A stretch of 55,294 nucleotides of DNA from contig NZ_JAFZKX010000093.1 in assembly GCF_017551775.1 (NCBI RefSeq), positions 1 to 55,294 of the forward strand. The letters are read 5' to 3'. Below the pieces are notes generated by a model that worked only from the letters and a program-made list of their open reading frames with translations, made no database searches and was not told where the DNA came from. The DNA comes from Fibrobacter sp. Lineage in GTDB: Bacteria; Fibrobacterota; Fibrobacteria; Fibrobacterales; Fibrobacteraceae. A program made the translations under genes and the position numbers. How positions within the stretch are numbered: position 1 is the first letter of the stretch; each line of letters opens with the position of its first letter. Below are positions 1 through 51,142 of the stretch, one piece after another.

Positions 1-2289
1 GAGCGAGGGGCCCGCGGTATCCTTGAACGGGTCACCCACGGTATCGCCCACCACGGCAGACTTGTGCGTATCGGAACCCTTGCCGCCGTAGTTACCCTTC
101 TCGACAAACTTTTTCGCATTGTCCCAGGCGCCGCCCGCATTGTTGAGCATGGTGGCAAGAGCAAACCCGCTCGCAAGCCCGCCCGCCAAAAGTCCGAACA
201 CGCCCGCGACACCCATGGTAAGTCCCACCAGCACAGGCACCACAACCGCAAGCACCGAGGGCATAATCATTTCGCGCTGGGCACCCGTCGTCGAAATTTC
301 CACGCAGCGGGCATAGTCCGGCTCGCCCGTCCCATCCATGATTCCCGGAATCTCGCGGAACTGGCGGCGCACCTCCTCCACCATCGCGCTAGCGGCACGG
401 CCCACCGCCTTGATGGTAAAGGCACAGAAAACGAACGTCATCATCGCCCCGATGAACAACCCGCCGAGCAGCATGGGGTTCATCAAGTTGAGGTTGTAAA
501 TCTGCATGAAGTCAGCGTAATTCACCTTGCTTGCGACCATTCCGAGAAGGTCCCCGTTCTCGGCGATGGCACGCGTGCCGCCGTCCAGGAACTTGACGCC
601 CGAAATGCCCGAAAGCGCTTTAGCGAGATCGCTCGCGCCGTTCGCGAACGCCACGGAACCCACCTTCCACACACCCTCCGCAGAGGATGCGAGGTGTCCA
701 AGCCAAATTTTCACTTCTTCTACGTAAGATGCGAGAAGCGCCATCGCAGTGAGCGCTGCAGAACCAATAGCGAAGCCCTTGCCCGTCGCAGCGGTGGTAT
801 TCCCGAGCATGTCGAGTTCGTCGGTACGGGCGCGCACTTCGGGATCGAGGCCCGCCATTTCGGCGTTACCGCCCGCATTGTCGGCAATCGGCCCGAAAGC
901 ATCGGTCGCAAGCGTGATGCCGAGCGTGCTCAGCATGCCCACAGCGGCAAAACCCACGCCGTAGAGGCCCATAGCCATATTCTCAAAACCGCCCGCACAG
1001 CCGAACGCGGCCACGATGCCAATCACGATAGTCACGACCGGAAGCCCAGTGGAGAACATGCCGACGGAAATGCCGTCGATAATCGTAGTCGCCGCACCGA
1101 GCTTGGCCTGGCCCGCGATACCGCGAGTGGGCTTGTAGGCATCGGAAGTGTAGTATTCGGTAAACTGCCCGATAAGGATTCCCGCGGCAAGGCCCGAAAG
1201 CACGGAACCGAAGATGCCTATCGAAATGAAATCAATCTTCACGAGCACGAGAAGCGCCACAAGGATAAGCACCGAAGAGCCGAGCGTTCCTGTAAGGAGG
1301 GAGCGCAACAGGGATTTCGTGGTGGCATTTTCCTTCGTGCGCACTGCAAAGATGCCCACAAGCGAAAGGATAATTCCAATCGCAGCCACCACCATCGGGG
1401 CGATCACGAGCTTTATGCCGCCCAGCGGTAAGGCAGCCCCGAGAGCCGCCGTCGAAAGAATGGATCCGCAGTAGGATTCGTAGAGGTCGGCGCCCATCCC
1501 GGCGACGTCCCCCACGTTATCACCGACGTTGTCCGCAATGGTCGCCGGGTTGCGCGGGTCATCCTCGGGGATGCCCGCCTCGACCTTGCCCACAAGGTCG
1601 GCGCCGACATCGGCCGCCTTCGTGTAAATGCCTCCACCCACGCGGGCGAAGAGTGCCTGCAGGGAAGCGCCCATACCGAAGGTAAGCATGGTCGTGGTGA
1701 TTTCCACCATCTTCGCATGCGCCCATTCCGCATTGTTCACCATGTCGGCAGTCCAGCCACCGAGCGAAATTTTCGCCGCCAAATCAGCGCCGAAATTCCA
1801 CACATTGTGGTCGTAAATGTAGTTGAGCGCAAAGAACCATGCCGAAATATCTAGGAGACCAAAGCCCACCACCACGAGGCCCATCACGGCGCCGCTACGG
1901 AACGCGATGACAAGCCCGCGGTTCAAGCTGCTGATGGCGCCGTTCGCCGTGCGGGAACTCGCGTACGTCGCCGTCTTCATGCCCAAAAAGCCGCAAAGCC
2001 CGCTGAAGAAGCCGCCCGTAAGGAAGGCTACCGGCACGAACGGATTCTGGATGCCCATGAAGGCCAGCACCACGAATACCGCGAAAAGCACCGCAAAGAC
2101 GATGGAAACCGTCTTGTATTGCCGCCGGAGGTAGGCAAACGCACCTACGCGCACAAAATGCGCAATCGCCTTCATTTTCTCATTGCCGTCGGGCTGCCGC
2201 TTCATGAACCTGTAAAAGAAAAACGCCATGGCGAGCGCAAACAACGCTGCAACCGGGACCAGGAACCAATAAGCTGGAATAGTAAGCAT
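1..2289 (-). CDS. hppA: Membrane-bound ion-pumping pyrophosphatase, C-terminus cut by window edge
   Basis: Couples pyrophosphate hydrolysis to H+ or Na+ export across the inner membrane. Translating the minus strand from the ATG at 2289 gives 763 codons open to the window edge. The family-specific pyrophosphate-binding stretch (DDPRNPATIADNVGDNVGD) is present, as are GNTTAATGKG and, near the edge, GDTVGDPFKDTAGPSL. The protein is hydrophobic throughout with many predicted membrane helices. The Ala after GNTTA is the residue that marks K+-dependent members of the family (K+-independent ones have Lys there), so I infer a K+-dependent, possibly Na+-pumping enzyme. Only a few dozen C-terminal residues should be missing, judged from where the GDTVGDPF motif normally lies. 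It is transcribed divergently from the membrane protein at 2397. Confidence 0.95.
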   Translation of the reverse strand, partial: MLTIPAYWFLVPVAALFALAMAFFFYRFMKRQPDGNEKMKAIAHFVRVGAFAYLRRQYKTVSIVFAVLFAVFVVLAFMGIQNPFVPVAFLTGGFFSGLCGFLGMKTATYASSRTANGAISSLNRGLVIAFRSGAVMGLVVVGFGLLDISAWFFALNYIYDHNVWNFGADLAAKISLGGWTADMVNNAEWAHAKMVEITTTMLTFGMGASLQALFARVGGGIYTKAADVGADLVGKVEAGIPEDDPRNPATIADNVGDNVGDVAGMGADLYESYCGSILSTAALGAALPLGGIKLVIAPMVVAAIGIILSLVGIFAVRTKENATTKSLLRSLLTGTLGSSVLILVALLVLVKIDFISIGIFGSVLSGLAAGILIGQFTEYYTSDAYKPTRGIAGQAKLGAATTIIDGISVGMFSTGLPVVTIVIGIVAAFGCAGGFENMAMGLYGVGFAAVGMLSTLGITLATDAFGPIADNAGGNAEMAGLDPEVRARTDELDMLGNTTAATGKGFAIGSAALTAMALLASYVEEVKIWLGHLASSAEGVWKVGSVAFANGASDLAKALSGISGVKFLDGGTRAIAENGDLLGMVASKVNYADFMQIYNLNLMNPMLLGGLFIGAMMTFVFCAFTIKAVGRAASAMVEEVRRQFREIPGIMDGTGEPDYARCVEISTTGAQREMIMPSVLAVVVPVLVGLTMGVAGVFGLLAGGLASGFALATMLNNAGGAWDNAKKFVEKGNYGGKGSDTHKSAVVGDTVGDPFKDTAGPSL

Positions 2290-2396
2290 TGAAACCTCTT
2301 TCTACTAAACCTTTGGCCGGCATCCGACGACCTTATAAAGAAATCTATAACGAAAATCCTAGAAAGGACGCTAAATTTTGTTTAAATTTACACTCC

Positions 2397-3179
2397 ATGC
2401 TGGAAAATCTCAATTTCCATTTCGAATTCTACGACTGGCTGCTCGTTTTCATGGTCACGGCGCTCGGAGTCTTCAGCGCCTACACCAAGGACCCCCAGCT
2501 CAAGGCCGTCGCGGCGACCATCCCCATCCCCTGCGGATTCGCCTATATCGCCGTCGGACTCCCCATGGGCACCGCGAACGCCATTTCGGGTTTCATGTGC
2601 CTGCTTTATGTGCATATCGTACGCATTCTTCACTATAAGGTAAAGGTTCCCATCATCCCCTCCATCGCCCTCGGCCTGGCCTTCTTCGTCGCGCTCGGAA
2701 CCTTCCTGATGCCCCGCATCCCGGATGGGGAAGCCTTCTTCATCGGGGCCTGCCTCTTCGACTTCACCGTGGGAGTCATCCTCTTCCAGAAGCAAAAATA
2801 CAAGTCCGGAGTCCGCTACAAGACTCCCCTGCCCGTATACATCAAGGCACCCGCCATCGCGGGCGTCGTCGCTGGCCTCATGGTCATAAAGAGGCTCATG
2901 GGCGGGTTCTGCACGAGCTTCCCGATGATGAACTCCATCGTAAGCTACGAATCGCGCTTTTCGCTGGGCGACCAGTGCAGGCAACTCCCGCTATTCCTCA
3001 TCGCGGGGCCGTTCATGTTCGCCGAGATGCGCTACCTCGAGATATTCCTGCACCTGAACCACTGGATTGTGCTCCTGTGCGGCTACGTGCTGTTCGCATG
3101 CATCTACTGGCCGCTGAACAAGGAACTCAAGCGCAGGAACGAGATGGCCGACGCGTCGTATTCGGACAAAAACAAGTAA
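2397..3179 (+). CDS. Polytopic inner-membrane protein, unknown function
   Basis: About 260 residues, mostly hydrophobic, with roughly seven or eight candidate membrane helices (for example GVFSAYTKDPQ flanked by hydrophobic runs, and IALGLAFFVALGTFLM). The C-terminus is charged and probably cytoplasmic. I chose the ATG at 2397 (MLENLNFHFEF); the reading frame is open back to 2289, but that upstream part overlaps the hppA start region and has no membrane-protein character. No clear Shine-Dalgarno sequence precedes it, and an AT-rich stretch (AAATTTTGTTTAAATTTA) lies immediately upstream. I recognise no family. It is followed by a short hairpin terminator and stands alone, so context says little about its job. 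Confidence 0.75.
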   Translation: MLENLNFHFEFYDWLLVFMVTALGVFSAYTKDPQLKAVAATIPIPCGFAYIAVGLPMGTANAISGFMCLLYVHIVRILHYKVKVPIIPSIALGLAFFVALGTFLMPRIPDGEAFFIGACLFDFTVGVILFQKQKYKSGVRYKTPLPVYIKAPAIAGVVAGLMVIKRLMGGFCTSFPMMNSIVSYESRFSLGDQCRQLPLFLIAGPFMFAEMRYLEIFLHLNHWIVLLCGYVLFACIYWPLNKELKRRNEMADASYSDKNK

Positions 3180-40723: not shown

Positions 40724-41086
40724 TTAAACTTGCACACTAATTCCAGTTTTTAGCGCAATCGCTTGAGATGCATAATCCAACAATTTTTCGTATGCAGGCT
40801 TGAATGTGCCGGGGACATCCACAGCAAGGCGCTTTTCTAGCCAACCTTTAAGTTTGATGCATTTCTCAAAGTCAAAATAATCACAGTCTCCAAAGTCAAG
40901 CAAGGATCCGCATGAATCATTAACGGGATTCACAAAATCATCTTTGAATTGATGCCAAATCTCTTGATTTGTACCGAAATCAAAATCATACATTTCTACC
41001 CTTGGGTCCGGCAAGGATTCTGGAATATCAGGTTCATCGCCATAATACGGAATTCCTTCTAACGTTTTAAACAAAACAAACCACAT
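40724..41086 (-). CDS. Small acidic protein, possibly an immunity-type protein
   Basis: 120 residues, strongly acidic (YYGDEPDIPESLPDPRVEMYDFDFG and LLDFGDCDYFDFEKC). No signal peptide. Its start overlaps the upstream stop codon by one base. The composition, size and tight pairing with another small gene resemble immunity proteins of polymorphic toxin systems, but no family is recognised. Located 31 nt before the XRE-ImmA gene and probably transcribed with it. Confidence 0.6.
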   Translation of the reverse strand: MWFVLFKTLEGIPYYGDEPDIPESLPDPRVEMYDFDFGTNQEIWHQFKDDFVNPVNDSCGSLLDFGDCDYFDFEKCIKLKGWLEKRLAVDVPGTFKPAYEKLLDYASQAIALKTGISVQV

Positions 41087-41457
41087 TACATTTCCTCCAA
41101 TCGTTTGATTTTGAAATGAGTTCTTTTTTTCGAGTTAGTCAAAGTTCCATCTAAACGATAATGTTTGTTGGAGGCCTTATTTTGTATTCGAAGGTAGCCG
41201 GACGCCATATCGCATATAACTTTATTCTCGGCACCTTCAAAAACAAATTTCACACCATCCTCATAGGCTTTCGCATTAGAGGCATAATGGTTTACAACGT
41301 CTATTACGTTGACCTTTTCCTGAATCCATTTATCATTATGTTTTCGTTCTCGTTCCTTACTGTTTTCGTAGTCACTTTTAGCAATGATACATGCGGGAAC
41401 CTCAACTTCGCAATAATGTTTTGAAACCTCGGAATATATCTCTTTTGCGTTAGCCAC
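41086..41457 (-). CDS. Small protein, possibly a toxin-type module
   Basis: 123 residues, basic C-terminus. Ends with DMASGYLRIQNK, then YRLDGTLTNSKKRTHFKIKRLEEM, a pattern I associate loosely with C-terminal modules of polymorphic toxins; this is memory, not a verified match. Start codon is GTG at 41457 with AAGGAGG 5 nt upstream. A perfect palindrome (41475-41492) and structured element copy 2 lie just before it. It heads the accessory operon 41457-39143. Confidence 0.6.
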   Translation of the reverse strand: MANAKEIYSEVSKHYCEVEVPACIIAKSDYENSKERERKHNDKWIQEKVNVIDVVNHYASNAKAYEDGVKFVFEGAENKVICDMASGYLRIQNKASNKHYRLDGTLTNSKKRTHFKIKRLEEM

Positions 41458-41676: not shown

Positions 41677-44600
41677 CTACACTGCTTCCATGGCCTTCAG
41701 CAAATCTTCATAATTTGCGACTTTGTGGTATTTCACATCGTCGGTAGAGATTTCATTGAAAAGTCGCTCGGCACAGTGGATTTTTGCATCTTCAATAGCC
41801 TTGAGTTGCATGGAATCCATGCTGCCCTTGGTTTCAGCGACAAAAAAGATGTGCTTGACGGAGCCTTTCTTGAAAGCGATTGCCCAGTCCGGCGAATAAT
41901 TGCCTACAGGCGTCGGGATCTGAAATCCCCGTGGTCCAGAAGGAAGTTTTGCATATACGGCAACTTCATCAGCGGTCTCTAGCTGTTTTGCGAATTTCGC
42001 TTCAACACTTTCTTCCGGTTTCTTGGCATAGCCATCCGTAAAGATATAATCGGTGATGTGCTTTTCAGTCAAGAAAGCCTTGTCAAGCGTGGCATGCTTT
42101 TCTGCGGTGAATATGTCGCTGTCATAGGTGCCGTCAATCATGGAGTAGCCGATATGCTCCACAATCATGGTCGCTTTCTGTTCCTTGATGAGTTTTACCA
42201 CATTCTTGATGTACTCTTCAGGATTGTTGCGGAACATGAACAACTTGCCATCGGTCTTTTTCAAGATTTCGACAACGGTTTTGCGCGTAAGTTTCGCGCC
42301 TTCGGCAATTTCCCCAACAAGGTCATATTTGACAGTTGATGTCGATATGGAATTCGCTTTTTTACGGACAGTCTTGGTAGCACCGAACTGGTCAACGGAA
42401 GTCTGATCGGCTTCTGTAATCACATACGTGAGTTCGCTGACCATCAAGTTGTCATTAATACTCTTGGCGGCTTTTTCAATCAGTTCATTACTGTCGTAGT
42501 CAACGGTATAGACATACTTGTGGTTCAGACGTTTCCACAAATCCTGAAATTCTTGCTTGTAGTAATTCGCGTTCAAGCAGGTTGCGGGAACTTCGGTTGC
42601 GTTGCCATCTTCGACCATAGTATTGAGGGCTAATTCCGCATCGAAGGTAAGTTGCACCATCTGATGGAGCGAGGTTTCCATTCCCGCAAGTTTTGGAGCC
42701 ATCGGCGCAAGCGTACCGGCATCCTTGTGCATCTTGTAAGTTTCGGTGACACGTCCCTTCTCGTCGATATAGTCATTCTGATACAAGTAGGCATACACAA
42801 GTGTCGCTTCGGCATCGGAAAGCGTATGCTTTGTGCCATCCACCATATCAATGGTTTTTCCAAAGAAGTATGCCTTATCGGCAACAAGGGGCCTTTCGCG
42901 GAGCGCTTCCCGAATTTCAGATTGTAAACCAGAAACAAAAGCGCCATAATCTTCATTGGCAACAACAGTCAACTTGTTCAGATTATGGATATCATCACCC
43001 AGAACTTCTAAATCCTGGCGGTCACCATCCTGATTGACACACAAACGCAATCCACGACCAACTTCTTGACGGCGGCGGACATTTGAACTAGCATGGCGTA
43101 ATGTGCAAATCTGGAAAACATTCGGATTGTCCCAGCCTTCTTGCAAAGCTGAATGGCTAAAGATAAAGCGAACGGGGTTTTTGAAACTGAGCAAGAGTTC
43201 CTTATTCTTCAAAATCAAATCATAAGCAGAAACATCATCGCTCATGCCGCCCAATTTCTTTTCCGCCTTGCTGTCGCAGGCATGCCCCTTCTTGTCAATA
43301 GAGAAGTAGCCCTTGTGAGTATCCTCGGCAGAAATCCCCTTCAAATACTTTTGATATTCATCATCAAAGAAAGTCAACTTTTCGGAAAGGATATTGTTGT
43401 ATTCCTCTTCAAAGGTTTTCCAAAGGAAACCATGGACTTCTTCGTCGCCGTCGTATCCCTTATAATTCGCCACTTCATCGATAAAGAACAATGACAGGCA
43501 CTTGATGCCCTTATTGAAAAGTTCCTCTTCTTTCTTGAAATGAGCTTCGATGGTTTCGCGAATTTGCAAGCGCTGCATGGTCTTGGCATCAGTATCGTTT
43601 ACCACCTGGCCCTTATAAATAATCTTGCCATTGGTGAAAACGACCTGGTTTGCAATGGGGTCAATTTCTGCGACAGTAAAGCCGTCATACGCCTTGGTGC
43701 CACTAGCAACGGAAAGTTTGTCGCCGTATTCAAACTTGCGATATTCGCGGCTGATACCACTTCCTTTTTTGACTTCAAGCTGAATTTTTGCAACAGGGGC
43801 TTTCTTCGGGTCCAAGATAATATCGTCAAGATACAGATATGCCGATGTGCCCGCCAAGTTTTTTGCCGTAAGCGTCTTGACTTGTATCTTTTTCACCAAT
43901 TTCTGGCGGTAGGCATCAAGTGCATCCAACGCATAAATCAAGTTATGCTGTGTTTTATGCGTCGCGGAATAATTCAAGATGAATAGCGGTTTGAATGCCT
44001 GCATGGTCTTTTGCGTAACATCGCCTTCAAGCTTTTGCGGTTCATCAAGAATAATAATGGGACGGTTTGCTGCAATGACATCAATAGGCTTGCGACTACC
44101 AAACTCGTCACGTCGGTCAAAAATTCTGCGATTGGCCTCAGCAACCTTTTTGCCTTCGGCGATTTTCTTCTTGTAATCTTCTTCGTCAAACGAAGATGCA
44201 AACGCCTGCGCATTGATAATCATTACATTGATTCCTGCATCACTCGAATACGAATCAATTTGCTGCAAGCGTTCACTGCTGTAAATGAAGAAACGGGCCT
44301 TCTTGCCATAATATTCCATGAAGTGATCTTGAAGTGTTTCAAAACTTTTATTCACGCCTTCACGAATCGCCTTGCTCGGAACGATGACCACGAACTTGCT
44401 CCAGCCATAACGCTTGTTGAGTTCGAACATCGTCTTGAGATACACATAGGTCTTGCCAGTGCCCGTTTCCATCTCGATGTCTAGGCGGCAAGCCTCATGC
44501 CCACCCGCAGACTTTACCACACTTGCAGAGCGTTTAATATCGCACTTATCCTGCGCCTTATGGATATTTTCAAGAAGTTCCTTGTCGGTAAGTTCTATTT

Positions 44601-44772
44601 CGTGATTACGAAAACCCGCATCGTCTTCTTCAAAAGCATTTACCTGGCCTTTGCGCTTACCTAAATCGCGACGATAACGCGTATTATCATAGCAAGGTTG
44701 CCCAGCAAAAACGCTTACGGTATTTTCTACAGCATCTGTCTGGTACTGCTGAATCTTGAACTTAAATTTCAT
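41677..44772 (-). CDS. res: Type III restriction-modification enzyme, endonuclease/helicase subunit
   Basis: 1031 residues. Res uses ATP to track along DNA and cuts unmodified targets together with Mod. Walker A is METGTGKTYVYLK near residue 105, motif Ia VVIVPSKAIREGV, Walker B IIILDEPQKLEG, motif III NYSATH; motif VI lies in ASSNVRRRQEVGRGLRL. The C-terminal nuclease has the PD-(D/E)xK pattern in NYSPDWAIAF and FFVAETKGS. Length is typical. It begins 11 nt after the Mod stop codon and ends the four-gene operon. The protein appears intact. Confidence 0.92.
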   Translation of the reverse strand: MKFKFKIQQYQTDAVENTVSVFAGQPCYDNTRYRRDLGKRKGQVNAFEEDDAGFRNHEIELTDKELLENIHKAQDKCDIKRSASVVKSAGGHEACRLDIEMETGTGKTYVYLKTMFELNKRYGWSKFVVIVPSKAIREGVNKSFETLQDHFMEYYGKKARFFIYSSERLQQIDSYSSDAGINVMIINAQAFASSFDEEDYKKKIAEGKKVAEANRRIFDRRDEFGSRKPIDVIAANRPIIILDEPQKLEGDVTQKTMQAFKPLFILNYSATHKTQHNLIYALDALDAYRQKLVKKIQVKTLTAKNLAGTSAYLYLDDIILDPKKAPVAKIQLEVKKGSGISREYRKFEYGDKLSVASGTKAYDGFTVAEIDPIANQVVFTNGKIIYKGQVVNDTDAKTMQRLQIRETIEAHFKKEEELFNKGIKCLSLFFIDEVANYKGYDGDEEVHGFLWKTFEEEYNNILSEKLTFFDDEYQKYLKGISAEDTHKGYFSIDKKGHACDSKAEKKLGGMSDDVSAYDLILKNKELLLSFKNPVRFIFSHSALQEGWDNPNVFQICTLRHASSNVRRRQEVGRGLRLCVNQDGDRQDLEVLGDDIHNLNKLTVVANEDYGAFVSGLQSEIREALRERPLVADKAYFFGKTIDMVDGTKHTLSDAEATLVYAYLYQNDYIDEKGRVTETYKMHKDAGTLAPMAPKLAGMETSLHQMVQLTFDAELALNTMVEDGNATEVPATCLNANYYKQEFQDLWKRLNHKYVYTVDYDSNELIEKAAKSINDNLMVSELTYVITEADQTSVDQFGATKTVRKKANSISTSTVKYDLVGEIAEGAKLTRKTVVEILKKTDGKLFMFRNNPEEYIKNVVKLIKEQKATMIVEHIGYSMIDGTYDSDIFTAEKHATLDKAFLTEKHITDYIFTDGYAKKPEESVEAKFAKQLETADEVAVYAKLPSGPRGFQIPTPVGNYSPDWAIAFKKGSVKHIFFVAETKGSMDSMQLKAIEDAKIHCAERLFNEISTDDVKYHKVANYEDLLKAMEAV

Positions 44773-44783
44773 ATCAGCACCTC

Positions 44784-46694
44784 TTAAATGACCTTGCGTT
44801 TGGTAGAGGGGCTGTAGTGAGTGAAGATTTGTTCAAAGTTGTCAAGTACTTTGTCGCTTTCAAGGCCAAAATTACGCATATAGAAATAATAAGGCTTTTT
44901 CTTTGCAATTTCGATGACGACTTCATCGGAGAGTTTTTCGTCGAAGCATGCCATCAAGAAGCCATCTGCCACATTAAAGCAGTTGAAAGAAGCATTACCG
45001 ACCTTGACTTCAAATTCTTCAATCTTGCTGGAAAGGGGTAAATTGCATTCAGGCATGACCTGGAAAAGCAAATCAAGCGGAGTGCGGCCTTCTTTCACAT
45101 TGTCGGCATTGAACAGGTTTACATCGACTGTTTCAGCCGGACTGTAATAGACATCTTTCATGTTGCTGTCGGCAAGTTTCAAGACACGGAAGCCGATATC
45201 AAGGTCTTTGGTTTTATCACCATTCTCCTTCTTGATTTTGTCGCCTGCACGGCGGATGCGTTCCTTGCCAATTTCGCAGATGGTCTTATAACCAGCCTTG
45301 TAGGCTTCGGAATCTTCCGCAGTTTTTTCAGGGAGTTGCACGCAGATGTATTTGCGTTTTCCACCATCTTCGGCATTCAACTGCATAACGGCATGGGCTG
45401 TTGTTGCGGAACCGGAAAAGAAGTCGAGAACAATTGAATCCTGTGACGTATTAGCAATTTGAATCAGCAAATGAAGCAACTTTACGGGTTTCGGACCATC
45501 AAAAAAACCGGACCCGTCAAACAAGTTCTTTAATTCTTGTTTCCCTTCTTGATTGTGCCCACCTTCTGTATGTAATATTAATGTATTTGGTCTTAAACCC
45601 GATTGAACTTCACTTAGAAATGTTTTTTTCCTCGGAACTCCATCTCCATTATTTCCAAACCATATTCGTTTATCAGACAGCCAATTGTTATATGTTTCTT
45701 TTGAGCAACTCCAATATCTACCACTAGGTGGAACAACCTTCCTTCCCGACGGTGTAGTAATTTCATATGTTAAACTTTCCGATCCTGATTTAGCGGACAG
45801 ACTAACCGACGTCCACAAGCCTCTAGGATCATTATCTGGATTAGAATAACCTGTAGGAATCTCTTCATTTCGGGGTAACAAACCTATTTTCCATCCATTT
45901 GAGCAATTCTGCACACTATTTTTACAATAACACAATATATGGTCATGCATCGTCGAAAAATATGTAGCGTCATTTGAACGTGCAAATTTTTTTTGCCAAA
46001 CTAAATTTGCCACAAAACAACTTTCCCCGAACACTTCATCACCAACTTTACGCAAATTATCAACTTCATTATCGTCAATACTAATAAATATCACTCCATC
46101 ATCACTTAACAAATTCCTTGCAATTTTCAGACGGGGATACATCATGTTCAGCCAGTCGGTATGAAAACGCCCGTTGCTTTCGCTGTTCTTCTCGAAGTTC
46201 TGCAAGAGCATATTTCCGTCTTCGTCATACATCCCGCTCTTGGACTGAAATGTTTCCGTATCTTCCTTGAAGTCGTCGTTATACACAAAATCATTGCCCG
46301 TGTTGTAAGGCGGATCTATGTATATCATCTTGATTTTGCCCAAGTAGTTTTCCTGAAGCAATTTGAGCACTTCAAGGTTATCACCTTCGATGTAAAGGTT
46401 CTCGGTATTGTCGAAATCGACCGACTCTTCCTTGCAAGGGCGCAGCGTCATATTCGTAGGAGCATTCGCATTATGGATAGCTTCGCGCTTGCCGGGCCAC
46501 GTGAACTGATAGCGTTCATCGCCTTCGCCAATGGTCGCATGGCTAAGGTTTTCCTGCAATCTTTCAAAGTCAATAGCGACCTTGGTCTTGCCGTCTTCGC
46601 CGACAGTCTCAGTGATGCATTCCGGGAAAAGGCTCCCAATTTTCTTGATGTTTTCGTTCACCATATCAAGACTATGCATGTTCGCTTTTTCCAT
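44784..46694 (-). CDS. mod: Type III restriction-modification DNA adenine methyltransferase
   Basis: 636 residues. Modifies the recognition site at the N6 of adenine and gives the restriction complex its specificity. Motif IV is IYIDPPYNTGND (DPPY at 127-130), and the SAM-binding motif IVLDFFSGSATTAHAVMQLN comes later, the motif order of beta-class enzymes. The middle (about 180-400) is the variable target-recognition region; around 45540-45960 the DNA is especially AT-rich, as often seen in exchanged recognition domains. ATG at 46694 with GGAGA 7 nt upstream. It follows the DUF4391 gene by 16 nt and precedes Res by 11 nt. Confidence 0.93.
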   Translation of the reverse strand: MEKANMHSLDMVNENIKKIGSLFPECITETVGEDGKTKVAIDFERLQENLSHATIGEGDERYQFTWPGKREAIHNANAPTNMTLRPCKEESVDFDNTENLYIEGDNLEVLKLLQENYLGKIKMIYIDPPYNTGNDFVYNDDFKEDTETFQSKSGMYDEDGNMLLQNFEKNSESNGRFHTDWLNMMYPRLKIARNLLSDDGVIFISIDDNEVDNLRKVGDEVFGESCFVANLVWQKKFARSNDATYFSTMHDHILCYCKNSVQNCSNGWKIGLLPRNEEIPTGYSNPDNDPRGLWTSVSLSAKSGSESLTYEITTPSGRKVVPPSGRYWSCSKETYNNWLSDKRIWFGNNGDGVPRKKTFLSEVQSGLRPNTLILHTEGGHNQEGKQELKNLFDGSGFFDGPKPVKLLHLLIQIANTSQDSIVLDFFSGSATTAHAVMQLNAEDGGKRKYICVQLPEKTAEDSEAYKAGYKTICEIGKERIRRAGDKIKKENGDKTKDLDIGFRVLKLADSNMKDVYYSPAETVDVNLFNADNVKEGRTPLDLLFQVMPECNLPLSSKIEEFEVKVGNASFNCFNVADGFLMACFDEKLSDEVVIEIAKKKPYYFYMRNFGLESDKVLDNFEQIFTHYSPSTKRKVI

Positions 46695-46710
46695 ACTTAT
46701 TCTCCGGTTA

Positions 46711-47394
46711 TTAAACTTTGGGACTGGATCCTTCGGGGCTTCGCCCCTCAGGATGACGTGTGGGGTGTGTCGCTTCGGCAAGCTCAGCGAGCTTAGCTTT
46801 CATCTGGTTAAATAGTTCTAGTTTACGGGCAGGTTGATTTTCAGTGCGAGCCTTCTTTTCTAGGACATCTATTTCTTTTTGCAGTTTGGCAACATGTTCT
46901 TGAATAACGAGATTTTCGGCAACAGTCAGGGAATCGTTCCAGGGTTCGCCCGCCACCTGTTTCACAATTCCATTCCAAGCCGCATCCAGGTCAAGCCCAT
47001 CAAAAACAAAACTGAAATCATTTGCCTCCACCCATTCTTTCGACACGACAACATGATCATCGTATTTCAAGGCAAAACGGGCGACATTTTCAGCACACAA
47101 CGCCAAAAGAATGTTCTTCTGCCCAATACGATGCAAAAGCATCTCGACATTCTTGGGGTTGAACGCTTTCTGTTTCAAAGCAACATTTGCCACAAAAAAT
47201 CCAGGCGCACGCGAGCCCGACGCCATGGGCATCGTCTTTGGGCTAACCATGTTCGTAATCATCACCTGTTTCACATCCCTGTTGAACACCGCCTTCTGCG
47301 CAGTCGTCATCGCAGACATCGAACCAATACGCCCTAAAAGGGAGTCTTTCGCTATCACCTGTTTCATGGCCGTATTTTCAGGAAATCCAAACAT
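46711..47394 (-). CDS. DUF4391 protein with a REP-derived C-terminal tail
   Basis: 227 residues. The middle (HRIGQKNILLALCAENVARFALKYDDHVVVSKEWVE) and the C-terminal coiled-coil segment (LVIQEHVAKLQKEIDVLEKKA) fit DUF4391, a family of unknown function recurrently encoded between SNF2-type helicases and type III Mod genes. AAGGAG lies 5 nt before the ATG at 47394; the GTG six bases upstream overlaps that site. The last 20 or so residues (HPTRHPEGRSPEGSSPKV) are encoded by a palindromic REP-like element and are probably not part of the ancestral protein. Confidence 0.78.
   Translation of the reverse strand: MFGFPENTAMKQVIAKDSLLGRIGSMSAMTTAQKAVFNRDVKQVMITNMVSPKTMPMASGSRAPGFFVANVALKQKAFNPKNVEMLLHRIGQKNILLALCAENVARFALKYDDHVVVSKEWVEANDFSFVFDGLDLDAAWNGIVKQVAGEPWNDSLTVAENLVIQEHVAKLQKEIDVLEKKARTENQPARKLELFNQMKAKLAELAEATHPTRHPEGRSPEGSSPKV
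46728..46754. repeat. REP-like palindrome within the 3' end of the DUF4391 gene
   Basis: Nested arms ATCCT/AGGAT (46728-46732, 46750-46754) and GGGGC/GCCCC (46735-46739, 46743-46747) form a perfect stem with two short internal loops and a 3-nt apical loop. GC-rich against an AT-rich background, so it looks inserted. Confidence 0.65.
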
Positions 47395-47403
47395 GCGCAC
47401 TCC

Positions 47404-50400
47404 TTAACGAACGACCAAGAAGCATATCAGTTCAAAATCGTCGAGTCCCTTGATGGCCTCGTTCCTGAAATCCACAAAGTCTCCGTTCAAGAAGGAACTG
47501 ACGTCGCTTTCTTCCTTCTTACAAACAATGGAATCTATCGCATGTCCCAGGCATTCCGAAACGCGGCCCATATCGCGCCCATCGCGGGTTTCTTCGTTGA
47601 ACGCATCGCACAAGATCTTGTCAGGCGAAGATTTTCCCTTAGCAAGCAGACGCATCACATCCAAAATTTCCTTAGGCTGCAAATGATTGGCGATAATTTC
47701 GCCATCGTTCCCCACATAGACCATATAGAATGGGTGCAAACGATTCTTGCCCTTGATGGATTCGTCGCCCTTGACATTCTTGAGCACAAAAATCACACCC
47801 GGCTTTTCGCCCTTCACCACAGCATAGATTCCGAACGGCACATGGTCCATATCCGTCTTCTGCTTGATATAGGCAAGTAGGTCCATACGGAACTCGTTCA
47901 GGCCCAAATCCATGATGGATACACCCGATTCCATATCTTCCAAATCGACGACTTCTTCTTGCAATTTTTTGAGCTGATTCCGGCGGTATTCCAAGTCGCC
48001 CTTTTCGTCCTGGTTAATCAAATCATCGTCGCCAGTCGCAGTCATCACCGAGATACGCATTCTCGTCTCGACACGTTCTTTCAGGTTGATGTATTCATCC
48101 AAATCAAGGTCTGGCCAAAAGTTCACCAACTGGATAACCTTATTCTGGCTGCCGATGCGGTCGATACGTCCAAATCGCTGCACAATACGCACTGGGTTCC
48201 AGTGAATATCGTAATTGACACAATAATCGCAATCCTGCAGGTTCTGGCCTTCGCTAATGCAATCCGTCGCTATCAAGATATCGATGTTTGCATTATCGTT
48301 GGGGTACAGGGATTCGCGATCTTTTGATTTCGGAGAAAAGGCAGCAAGTACATGGTTGATGTCCGCCTTGAAATTCGGAATGGTCGAACGCCCGTTGATA
48401 TCGCCAGTTACGAGAGCCGCATTTACGCCCATTTCATTTTTCAAGAAATCGGAAAGACTTTCGTAAAGGTATTCCGCCGTATCCGAGAACGCAGTAAACA
48501 CAAGGACCTTCTTGTTCCCTTCGTTAATCGGGTTGGATATCTTTTCGCGAATAATCCTTTTTAGTTCATTCAGTTTAAAATCATATTCCGGGGTGACGCC
48601 CTTCACCATATTGACAAGTTCACCGAACGTCTTTATATCACTATCGATATCGCGCTTCCACGAGATGTAATCCATGTCGCGCAAATCAATTGCGGCCTTC
48701 TTGCCTACGGTAAAGTAGTCGGTATTCTGGTCATCGCCATCAAGGGAGAACGGATTTGCTTCGATGGTAATTTTTTCACTGACCTTGGTCCGCTCGTAAT
48801 TATCAATTGTTTTTGAAGTCTGTTTCAGGTAGCCACAGATTTCTTCAACCGTCATTAAGAAGGAATGCACCGAACTTTCCATACGCTTGAGCAAATTTAT
48901 CGCCATGATGCGCTGGATTCCAAGTTCACGTCCTTTACGGAAGTTTTCCGATTCGCTTGCCCCCAGATACTTTGGCAAGGAACTGTCCAATACAAAATTG
49001 AGCGGAGTATATATCGTGAGTTTTAGGTTCTGCAACAACTCAAAAATTTCATGGTAATTGATACCGCCCGCCAAGTCAGTCAGCTTCGGCCGCAGAGAGA
49101 TGGGCTTGTTTCGTTCCGGGAACGCACCAATCTCCTTCATATCGTAATAAGTCTGGATTTGCCGACGAGAGCGCGCAATCGTCACGCTGTCAAGAACTTC
49201 GAAAAAGTCAAAATCCAGACGAGACAACAGGTTCGGAGTAGTACGTTCTTTTTCTGGGAACTTGCACCATGCGTTATAGACCCCTTGCGCCTGCCTAAAA
49301 ATTTCGTCAATATCATTCCTAGTCGAAAGTTTGCTGTTAAATTCATCGGGGTTGTCGCAATATGCGAGAGCCAGCTGGTTACGCAAGTCGTAGAAACGGT
49401 TATTGACGGGAGTCGCCGAAAGCATGAGCACTTTCGTTTTCTTATTGGGCTTTATAATCCGGCTCATGAGTCGCATGTAGCGGTTTTCTTTTTCACCACC
49501 CTTGCTGTTCGTACCGTTACCGTTCCTGAAATTGTGGCTTTCGTCTATCACCACAAGATCGTAATTACCCCAGTTGATGCTGTTAATCGAAAGGCCCGTC
49601 GCAATTTTACCTTCGTCGCGAGACAAGTCCGTGTGATAAGCGATGTCGTAACGCAAACGATCTTCAGCCAGCGGGTTGTTCACCTGATTCCCACGATAAG
49701 TCATCCAGTTTTCGGACAACTTCTTGGGGCAAAGCACCAAGACATCCTTGTTGCGACCTTCGTAATACTTTATGACTGCGAGGGCGGTAAAGGTCTTGCC
49801 AAGACCCACGCTATCAGCCAAGATGCAGCCGTTATACTGTTCCAACTTGTGAATTATGGCGACTGCAGCATCTTTCTGGAAATTATAAAGTTTGTTCCAG
49901 ACTGCCGTTTCCTTGAAACCCGTCGCCTCGTTCGGCAGAACATCTTCCGATACATCTTCCAGGAATTCGCTGAAGATGTTGTAGAGCGTCATGAAGTAGA
50001 TGAGTTCCGGAGAATTCTCTTGATAGACCGTCGTTATCATCTTGACGACATCTTCGGTGACATCCTTCAACTTTTCCGCATCGTTCCAGACGGCGTTAAA
50101 CTTTTGCAGGAACTCCGCACTCGCCGGATTTTCAAGACGCGTCACCATGTTCATCAGGTTGTTGCCGCGCTTTACGCCCAAGTCCACCGTCGTGAAAGTA
50201 TTGATTGGCGTGTAAGTGTAGGTATCTTCGGGATTCTTGACCGAAAGAAAATTGTTCATGCCTTCGCGTGTCACGTTCGACTTAAACTTCACCTTGCGAC
50301 GAACCCATTCCGCACATTCGCGGGCCACCACCCGCTGTTTGAGTTCGTTGCGTAGGCGCAGTTCGAATTCGGTGCCGTACAGGGACTTTTCGCGATGCAA

Positions 50401-50625
50401 GCGTTGGATGTAAAATTCCTTGCGCTCCTTGTCGGAATCTTCGGCGACAAATGTGGGCGACGTAAAAATGAACCGAAAATCTTCGCAACCTTCCAACTGC
50501 TTGCGGAGTTCATCGAACGCATAGATGGAAAAACAGGCCGCAGCAATAGAAACTCGACTGCCACGACGAATCTTGTCAAGAAGATCGGCCTTGACCGTCT
50601 TAGTCACGTTATCAAATAATTCCAT
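47404..50625 (-). CDS. SNF2/DEAD-type helicase with N-terminal PLD-like region
   Basis: 1073 residues. The N-terminal 170 residues (DLLDKIRRGSRVSIAAACFSIYAFDEL, RFIFTSPTFV) resemble the PLD-like region seen in many defence helicases, although no clean HKD motif is visible. The helicase core follows: ADSVGLGKTFTALAV (Walker A), VVIDESHNFRNGNG (DESH box), MLSATPVNNR (motif III), VLVFTAFSDTAEYL and VQRFGRIDRIGSQNKV (motif VI). It leads the operon with DUF4391, Mod and Res, each a few bases apart, so it probably works with the type III restriction system. ATG at 50625. Its leader holds a long interrupted palindrome. Confidence 0.88.
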   Translation of the reverse strand: MELFDNVTKTVKADLLDKIRRGSRVSIAAACFSIYAFDELRKQLEGCEDFRFIFTSPTFVAEDSDKERKEFYIQRLHREKSLYGTEFELRLRNELKQRVVARECAEWVRRKVKFKSNVTREGMNNFLSVKNPEDTYTYTPINTFTTVDLGVKRGNNLMNMVTRLENPASAEFLQKFNAVWNDAEKLKDVTEDVVKMITTVYQENSPELIYFMTLYNIFSEFLEDVSEDVLPNEATGFKETAVWNKLYNFQKDAAVAIIHKLEQYNGCILADSVGLGKTFTALAVIKYYEGRNKDVLVLCPKKLSENWMTYRGNQVNNPLAEDRLRYDIAYHTDLSRDEGKIATGLSINSINWGNYDLVVIDESHNFRNGNGTNSKGGEKENRYMRLMSRIIKPNKKTKVLMLSATPVNNRFYDLRNQLALAYCDNPDEFNSKLSTRNDIDEIFRQAQGVYNAWCKFPEKERTTPNLLSRLDFDFFEVLDSVTIARSRRQIQTYYDMKEIGAFPERNKPISLRPKLTDLAGGINYHEIFELLQNLKLTIYTPLNFVLDSSLPKYLGASESENFRKGRELGIQRIMAINLLKRMESSVHSFLMTVEEICGYLKQTSKTIDNYERTKVSEKITIEANPFSLDGDDQNTDYFTVGKKAAIDLRDMDYISWKRDIDSDIKTFGELVNMVKGVTPEYDFKLNELKRIIREKISNPINEGNKKVLVFTAFSDTAEYLYESLSDFLKNEMGVNAALVTGDINGRSTIPNFKADINHVLAAFSPKSKDRESLYPNDNANIDILIATDCISEGQNLQDCDYCVNYDIHWNPVRIVQRFGRIDRIGSQNKVIQLVNFWPDLDLDEYINLKERVETRMRISVMTATGDDDLINQDEKGDLEYRRNQLKKLQEEVVDLEDMESGVSIMDLGLNEFRMDLLAYIKQKTDMDHVPFGIYAVVKGEKPGVIFVLKNVKGDESIKGKNRLHPFYMVYVGNDGEIIANHLQPKEILDVMRLLAKGKSSPDKILCDAFNEETRDGRDMGRVSECLGHAIDSIVCKKEESDVSSFLNGDFVDFRNEAIKGLDDFELICFLVVR

Positions 50626-50777
50626 CTACTAATCGCCTATCGCACTTTGCGGCGGGCGGCAAATCAAGCAATAAAGAAATGGTCGTCTAACCGTAAGGCG
50701 CGGGTTGCGCTCTTATTCGGGCGGGATTTACGCTATTTTCTGGGAATAGAAAAGGCGTGGAATCGAAAGCGCTTATC

Positions 50778-50896
50778 GTTACTGAGGTTACGACCAAGTA
50801 CCCTTCGACCAATAAGCACAAACGACCCACGCACAGAGTGCGTGAGCGCTTGCCTTACTCTTGGTCGATTTGAAAAAATGGTCGTATTTCAGTAAC
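50778..50896. promoter_or_regulatory. Long interrupted palindrome with repeated CGACC motifs
   Basis: GTTACTGA (50778-50785) mirrors TCAGTAAC (50889-50896). Inside, TACGACCA and TCGACCAA on the left mirror TTGGTCGA and TGGTCGTA on the right. The centre is CACGCAC-AGA-GTGCGTG (50828-50844). Both arms keep the same block order around one centre. Further GGTCG copies lie near 50680 and 50926. Possible operator array, structured RNA or recombination site. Confidence 0.55.
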
Positions 50897-50981
50897 CAGA
50901 ATAAGAGCAAAAACTCTAATTTTTTCGGTCGCCCAATGCCGCGAGGCAAGGGGCTATGTCTATAAGAATGATAGTAAAAAG

Positions 50982-51075
50982 GTGACCCCGGAACAGTGTC
51001 CGGGGTGACAATACGGGGGTTTTAGGGGGTGGAACCCCTTAGGCTGAGGGGGTGCGCCCCGGAACAAGTCCGGGG
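50982..51075. repeat. REP-like GC-rich hairpins
   Basis: Two related hairpins: CCCCGGA (50986-50992)/TCCGGGG (50999-51005) and CCCCGGA (51057-51063)/TCCGGGG (51069-51075). The first is framed by GTGA and GTGAC. The sequence between is a string of G- and C-runs. They resemble dispersed REP elements. Confidence 0.55.
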
Positions 51076-51142
51076 CAGGCTCTCGACCCGGCCGGGGCTG
51101 CAGCCAGGGGGAGACATCCCCCACCATGGTTCCCTTTTTGCC

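Follow-up and report, generated by a model that had tools for sequence, protein, structure and literature searches.

Upstream of a restriction-modification (R-M) operon in Fibrobacter sp. lies a large nested palindrome, and the question that it raises is whether it acts as DNA or as RNA. A first-pass annotation of the 55,294-nucleotide stretch of DNA analysed here (the window) had placed this palindrome where the promoter of a helicase-DUF4391-Mod-Res operon should be, and had offered several readings: a multi-site operator, a cruciform or structured RNA, or the end of a mobile unit. The nested arms that it described are present: an outer pair at 50709-50718 / 50899-50908, which tool extension lengthened to 13 nt (92%), frames inner blocks running from 50778 to 50896, among them CAGTAAC/GTTACTG, TACGACCA/TGGTCGTA (50789-50796 / 50879-50886) and TCGACCAA/TTGGTCGA (50805-50812 / 50861-50868), around a central apical hairpin of the GTGCGTGG type. 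Comparison of the fold with 200 dinucleotide shuffles gave z scores of -7.0 for the plus strand and -8.5 for the minus strand, with no shuffle equalling it. The palindrome is real, and an origin by chance is remote. The reported recurrence of CGACC also held: CGACC/GGTCG occurs seven times in 281 nt, as compared to 0.8 expected from the window average, and nowhere else in the window does the count reach seven. The copy at 50681 is part of an extra direct repeat and that at 50927 falls in a 5′ hairpin region; most of the seven are complementary stem arms or the conserved GTCG of the apical hairpin, and the array is thus no independent feature.

To place the palindrome in a wider setting, we searched for relatives. 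BLAST of the window's own genome returned clear relatives on three contigs (C71, C19 and C26), and BLAST over 60 related genomes returned copies in nearly every member of the same genus. A covariance model built from 31 copies (R1) detected the element in every one of 41 sampled Fibrobacter genomes, with 349 copies in total and 2-21 per genome. Many of the genomes appear to be metagenome assemblies; for retrieval of copies with their surroundings the best-scoring ones were preferred, and eight genomes were sampled more deeply. Over 168 genomes of the phylum, R1 matched 91 at E <= 1e-6: the Fibrobacter genomes listed save one, members of several further genera in the same family, and a single genome from a different family. 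The own-genome copies found by R1 lie on C93 (the contig of the window), C71, C26, C46 and C19; C19 and C26 also hold partial tandem copies. Own-genome BLAST matches on C38, C5, C62 and C55 have no such fold, were not found by R1, and were discarded as chance. An exact 21-mer of the core occurs in 66 contigs of the GTDB collection, titled as Fibrobacter, its family or its order, bar three oddly labelled bins. Among the records with copies is one titled F. intestinalis ATCC 43854, a cultured strain, so the element can be tested. A search of 11 loci against Rfam 15 gave, as its sole match at the gathering score, one neighbouring tRNA and nothing for the element itself. We found no description of this RNA in open-access papers, and the structure is apparently undescribed so far.

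Copies of the family keep a fixed order on one strand: a promoter-like TATA box and GACATAG come first, the structured core and a U-run follow, and a co-directional gene completes the series. In the window the series runs along the minus strand to the helicase gene at 47404-50625, behind which lie DUF4391, Mod and Res; this bears out the suggested position at the 5′ end of the operon. The minus-strand fold (z -8.5) and the covarying stems described below likewise bear out the structured-RNA option. From this anatomy we infer that the palindrome encodes a structured RNA of this family, transcribed from the minus strand as the 5′ leader of the helicase-DUF4391-Mod-Res operon. The plus strand was considered as the source of an RNA and rejected, as that side has neither a U-run nor a conserved gene. 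The parts of the window copy and its operon, in predicted roles, are as follows.

50748..50907, minus strand: leader RNA core (covariance-model match, 132 bits)
50954..50960, minus strand: conserved GACATAG, presumed RNA 5′ end (from motif conservation upstream of copies)
50930..50955, minus strand: short 5′ hairpin GCCC..GGGC after the start motif (seen in the alignment)
50899..50908, minus strand: 5′ arm of the outer stem (the outer pair first annotated)
50853..50907, minus strand: A half, the 5′ strand of the long hairpin, made up of CTCTTATTC, the 5′ arms of P1, P2 and P3, and GAGTAAGG
50820..50850, minus strand: apical hairpin GCGCTCACGCAC-TCT-GTGCGTGGGTCG, its 3′ strand common to the terminator
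50769..50819, minus strand: M half, the 3′ strand of the long hairpin, made up of GTGCTTATT, the 3′ arms of P3, P2 and P1, and GATAAGCGC
50750..50765, minus strand: putative terminator 3′ strand CGATTCCACGCC then UUUU, the alternative partner of GCGTGGGTCG (hairpin -34.7 kcal/mol)
50709..50718, minus strand: 3′ arm of the outer stem, downstream of the U-run, so that closure is possible only after read-through
50674..50696, minus strand: 23-nt direct repeat (78%) of part of the A half
47404..50625, minus strand: SNF2/helicase, 1073 aa, first gene of the operon
46711..47400, minus strand: DUF4391 protein
44784..46781, minus strand: Mod, an N6/N4 DNA methylase, type III-like
41677..44772, minus strand: Res, with ResIII helicase and RE_endonuc nuclease

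Across the family the A half consists of CTCTTATTC, P1, P2, P3 and GAATAAG. The presumed start is well kept: ACATAG is found in 58% of 193 upstream regions and in 4% of shuffled ones. A TATA-rich -10-like box precedes GACATAG in many copies and is poorly kept in the window copy (TACTATCATTCTTATA), whose U-tract, UUUUCUAUU, is interrupted and weaker than the usual six U; because of these two features, the window copy may terminate weakly. Immediately upstream of the window leader, at 50982-51009 and 51057-51076, there are short palindromes of the CCCCGGAACAnnTCCGGGG type; similar ones stand near other copies, and they are probably a dispersed repeat of the genus.

Which genes follow the leader? 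A co-directional gene lies near the 3′ end in 91 loci, as expected of a leader. In seven loci the nearest predicted ORF is on the opposite strand; these are short ORFs inside the leader or flank, and most of the seven have a co-directional gene within about 400 nt. Genes on the upstream side are of mixed orientation (54 to 42). We grouped the first co-directional genes of 80 flanked stretches and the own-genome copies into 49 clusters and counted by hand from Pfam results: R-M or DNA-modification clusters made up 31 of 49 downstream as compared to one of 65 upstream, a ResIII (Fisher P 4e-14). The downstream systems are of types I, II, IIG and III, or Dnd-like, and their domains comprise HsdM, type III Mod, MmeI-type, N6 and C5 methylases, D12, EcoRI methylase, Tsp45I nuclease, HsdR/ResIII, SNF2 helicase and a DndC-like PAPS-reductase domain. 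In a larger set, 119 of 189 copies stand directly before R-M genes, and 12 further copies precede DUF4417-type genes, some of them followed by a second leader and R-M genes. Seen from the side of the genes, a hand count over five genomes gave a leader for about 16 of 35 N6- or C5-methylase systems.

The copies fall into subtypes distinguished by their apex, termed short, long R and long L. Type II R-M genes come next in 38 of 39 long R copies and R-M genes in 74 of 128 short copies; none of the 12 long L copies has R-M genes next, and lipoproteins (called from their N-termini) and other genes are found there instead. With long L at zero of 12 and about half of the methyltransferase genes having no leader, the link between leader and R-M genes is strong, yet neither exclusive nor complete. 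Copies before lipoproteins or other non-R-M genes, including Fib_succ_major and collagen-like proteins, were seen at L074-L079, L193, L225, L241 and L242, many of them in a subtype whose long apex differs (CAGTTTGCT..GGGCAACAGCCC).

Several loci have a more complex layout. Tandem leaders 1.4-2.1 kb apart occur at L090, L094, L096, L102, L103 and L106, the first before a module of small genes (with a DUF4417-related protein in several) and the second mostly before R-M genes; small genes related to these modules seem to be present in the window at 40724-41457. Weaker copies with a degenerate 5′ half lie downstream of the main leader at L093:3776-3939, L111:3668-3833, L114:1612-1767 and L116:1620-1777, and precede small genes including an addiction-module antidote (L114) and an EndoU nuclease (L116). 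On contig C71 of the window's own genome, an apparent valS 3′ end occurs twice (L009:1-279 and 2131-3054), and between the two lie a leader, a T5orf172 gene and a small membrane protein, an arrangement that resembles an island with duplicated ends.

How might such a leader work? Two folds can be drawn for it. In one, the A half pairs with the M half to form the long hairpin. With both arms taken as fixed windows from the two ends, the mean A:M pairing energy over 194 copies is -39.1 kcal/mol in cis and -19.4 kcal/mol in trans. In 37 aligned copies of one subgroup, chosen by its P2, 98.4% of alignment cells pair and 14 pairs change on both sides; doubly changed cells number 173, as compared to 44 in shuffles and 10-29 when the strands are slid. 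P1 and P3 are hypervariable, while P2 is fixed inside this subgroup and differs between subgroups. In the other fold, GGCGTGGGTCG...GUGCUUAU pairs with AUAAGUGC...CGACUCCACGCC directly before a run of four to eight U. When most of the last 8 nt are required to be paired, 191 of 194 copies have a hairpin that ends at the U-run (52 of 194 when a strict closing pair is demanded). Its median energy is about -41 kcal/mol, and 97.6% of cells in its stem pair, as compared to 33-57% when slid. Compensated variants of this stem include GGTGTGG/CCACACC (L042), CGCGGGUCGUC/GACGGCCCGCG (L159) and a change of TCG/CGA to TTG/CAA between subtypes; covariation within one subgroup is slight because the core hardly varies. 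As the two folds share one strand, they exclude each other. These data support two mutually exclusive structures, A:M and a candidate terminator. The free-energy minimum is A:M in 126 of 130 short leaders and the terminator in 24 of 42 long R leaders. This thermodynamic advantage of A:M in almost every short leader counts against the attenuation proposed next, which would require some factor to release M.

Together, these features suggest that the leader is a transcription attenuator in which A:M serves as antiterminator against an intrinsic terminator, a reading that we consider probable. Its name, like the minus-strand transcription, the termination and the assignment of A:M as the 'on' state, derives from anatomy. 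A:M would form first in the nascent RNA and would keep GGCGTGGGTCG...GUGCUUAU from its other partner, allowing RNA polymerase to continue into the R-M genes. When A is occupied or otherwise unavailable, be it through an RNA in trans, a protein or a ribosome, GGCGTGGGTCG...GUGCUUAU would pair with AUAAGUGC...CGACUCCACGCC, the terminator would form before the U-run, and only a short leader RNA would be made.

Other readings account for part of these data. The terminator could instead be the 3′ end of a stand-alone small RNA with a target elsewhere or a role in the defence system, the R-M operon having its own promoter or depending on read-through: a strong terminator and U-run in nearly all copies, together with a promoter-like start, would delimit an RNA of about 220 nt, and RNAs whose partners are orthogonal typically have hypervariable stems. 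Such an RNA would not require, however, a second long hairpin whose formation exactly precludes the terminator. The distance from the U-run to the gene is usually 40-120 nt in short copies (250-400 nt in the subtype with a second A copy, below); this short start-codon distance and the strict co-direction point to a leader, and we noticed no other promoter-like conservation from the U-run to the gene. We judge a stand-alone RNA unlikely. It is less likely still that the switch works mainly on translation, with access to the ribosome-binding site set by the outer stem (GCUCUUAUUC/GAAUAAGAGC) and by start-codon hairpins, and termination secondary. Complements of the outer stem are indeed enriched past the U-run (mean -10.1 as compared to -7.4 kcal/mol shuffled), GAATAAG recurs there in 26% of copies as compared to 1%, and the start codon is hidden in some copies, for example by TAAGGGC..GCCCTTATG in L029, L031 and L035; yet start-codon hairpins are not general, whereas the terminator is found in 191 of 194 copies.

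Readings in which the palindrome acts as DNA fit poorly. For an operator, bound as double-stranded DNA by an R-M protein or regulator, speak the repetition of CGACC in both orientations and the known DNA-binding control of R-M operons (RptR, PMC12255303). The multi-site operator of the first-pass annotation is not supported, however, as the CGACC copies mostly form the paired arms of stems, which vary freely between copies, with compensation and independently of the downstream gene, while the conserved parts (the U-run and the GACATAG start) are strand-specific; we give this reading almost no credence. Nor does a cruciform account for the U-run, the start codon after it and the single orientation, which fit a single-stranded transcript. 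Equally implausible is the end of a mobile element or a recombination site (a MITE, an IS end or an attC-like hairpin) flanking R-M cargo by chance. Its inverted-repeat shape, the many dispersed copies, the horizontally moving genes nearby and the chimeric copies L099 and L106, which point to recombination between leaders, would suit such an element. Against it stand the one orientation relative to the downstream gene, the short start-codon distance, the U-run, the compensatory stem changes, window flanks lacking a target duplication, the many unrelated R-M operons that follow, and neighbours with no recombinase family in common; moreover, a plasmid search with the window copy and a search of viral contigs with an exact 21-mer of the core gave no match. 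The refuting pattern named in the first-pass annotation, absence upstream of related operons and occurrence elsewhere as a decayed transposon, did not appear.

Specific identities were also considered and rejected. A MITE or insertion sequence was dismissed on the fixed orientation to the downstream gene and on reading the window flanks, where no target-site duplication was seen. The integron attC motif RYYYAAC ... GTTRRRY is absent from the hairpin ends of the copies read, the inner ends being GTTACTG..CAGTAAC in the window and other variable sequences in the rest. A retron RNA was set aside as the downstream cluster representatives scanned with Pfam gave no RT domain.

If the leader is an attenuator, do its variable stems carry specificity? 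The first-pass annotation had advised checking whether the motif also lies at recognition sites of Mod. The stems are not tied to that site: the same hsdM-type gene occurs with different stems (L023/L029), and different genes occur with the same stems (L029/L031 and L035/L036). Two apparently chimeric leaders, L099:6501-6654 and L106:3607-3761, have A and M from different parents and part of P1 or P3 unpaired, which suggests recombination between leaders. As leaders and genes reassort and leaders recombine, the stems are unlikely to encode the recognition site of the R-M system.

Two observations bear on pairing between RNAs. Firstly, among copies of the same subtype, with homologous downstream genes excluded, strong cross-pairs (<= -28 kcal/mol) make up 3.1% within genomes as compared to 6.8% between genomes. 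This depletion, about twofold, was not significant with 99 copies and was significant with 194, none of 2000 permutations being as low, in a permutation that ignores the spread of leaders between species. Secondly, long R leaders (L190, L192, L194, L207 and others) have a second copy of A, termed B, about 60-75 nt past the U-run and before the gene. B is able to pair with M in place of A, with a predicted energy of -44.5 kcal/mol for M of its own locus as compared to -36.7 for M of others (42 copies). The 23-nt direct repeat at 50674..50696 of the window resembles this B copy, which is not regular in short copies such as that of the window. Both observations hint that base pairing from one RNA to another may be of consequence, and the lower cross-complementarity within genomes suggests that such pairing is locus-specific. 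P1 and P3, and P2 across subgroups, can vary if both arms change, and the leaders of one cell can therefore stay orthogonal.

A bolder and rather doubtful extension of the attenuator reading is that each terminated leader RNA would use its variable stems to act in trans on the nascent leader of its own locus, in the manner of plasmid copy-number control. Were this the case, an R-M operon entering a cell without its RNA would be fully expressed and then throttled once established, R-M loci whose stems match would be 'incompatible' with each other, and the leader would be an RNA counterpart of C proteins common to all R-M types.

What is known of the restraint of R-M systems, above all on their entry into a new cell, concerns mainly protein regulators. 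The RNA family described here, spread over a bacterial family, stands before systems of types I, II, IIG and III and before a Dnd-like gene, and it shows two competing folds and hints that copies sharing a cell distinguish self from non-self in their pairing. If our reading holds, it would represent a way of controlling restriction generally at the level of RNA, a marker for new Fibrobacter defence genes, and a natural library of orthogonal attenuators.

The leader resembles attenuators of the trp, riboswitch and T-box types in being a 5′ leader with two competing hairpins, a predicted terminator before a U-run, and a co-directional gene. Unlike them, it has no known aptamer, its antiterminator stems are hypervariable between paralogous copies, and one family precedes many unrelated R-M operons. 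Antisense-RNA attenuation governs the copy number of plasmids such as pT181 and pIP501. As there, base pairing of stem-loops would decide the outcome, and pairing sequences diverge between co-resident systems; by contrast, no separate antisense promoter was seen in the Fibrobacter leader, and the partners A and M lie on one transcript. Engineered orthogonal versions of antisense-RNA attenuation exist (PMC3753616). Within R-M loci, a parallel is offered by the pneumococcal tvr (SpnIV) type I locus, where a simple 19-bp hairpin attenuator controls the recombinase gene tvrR (PMC6265443); both are RNA hairpins with a U-run that attenuate, or in Fibrobacter would attenuate, transcription, whereas no alternative antiterminator appears for tvr in the portion of that report considered here. 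Finally, RptR and activator/repressor proteins of the C-protein type control R-M systems at promoter DNA (PMC12255303, PMC3695507). Like them, the Fibrobacter element would be dedicated to the regulation of R-M operons; the difference is that theirs are proteins acting on DNA, and this one is an RNA.
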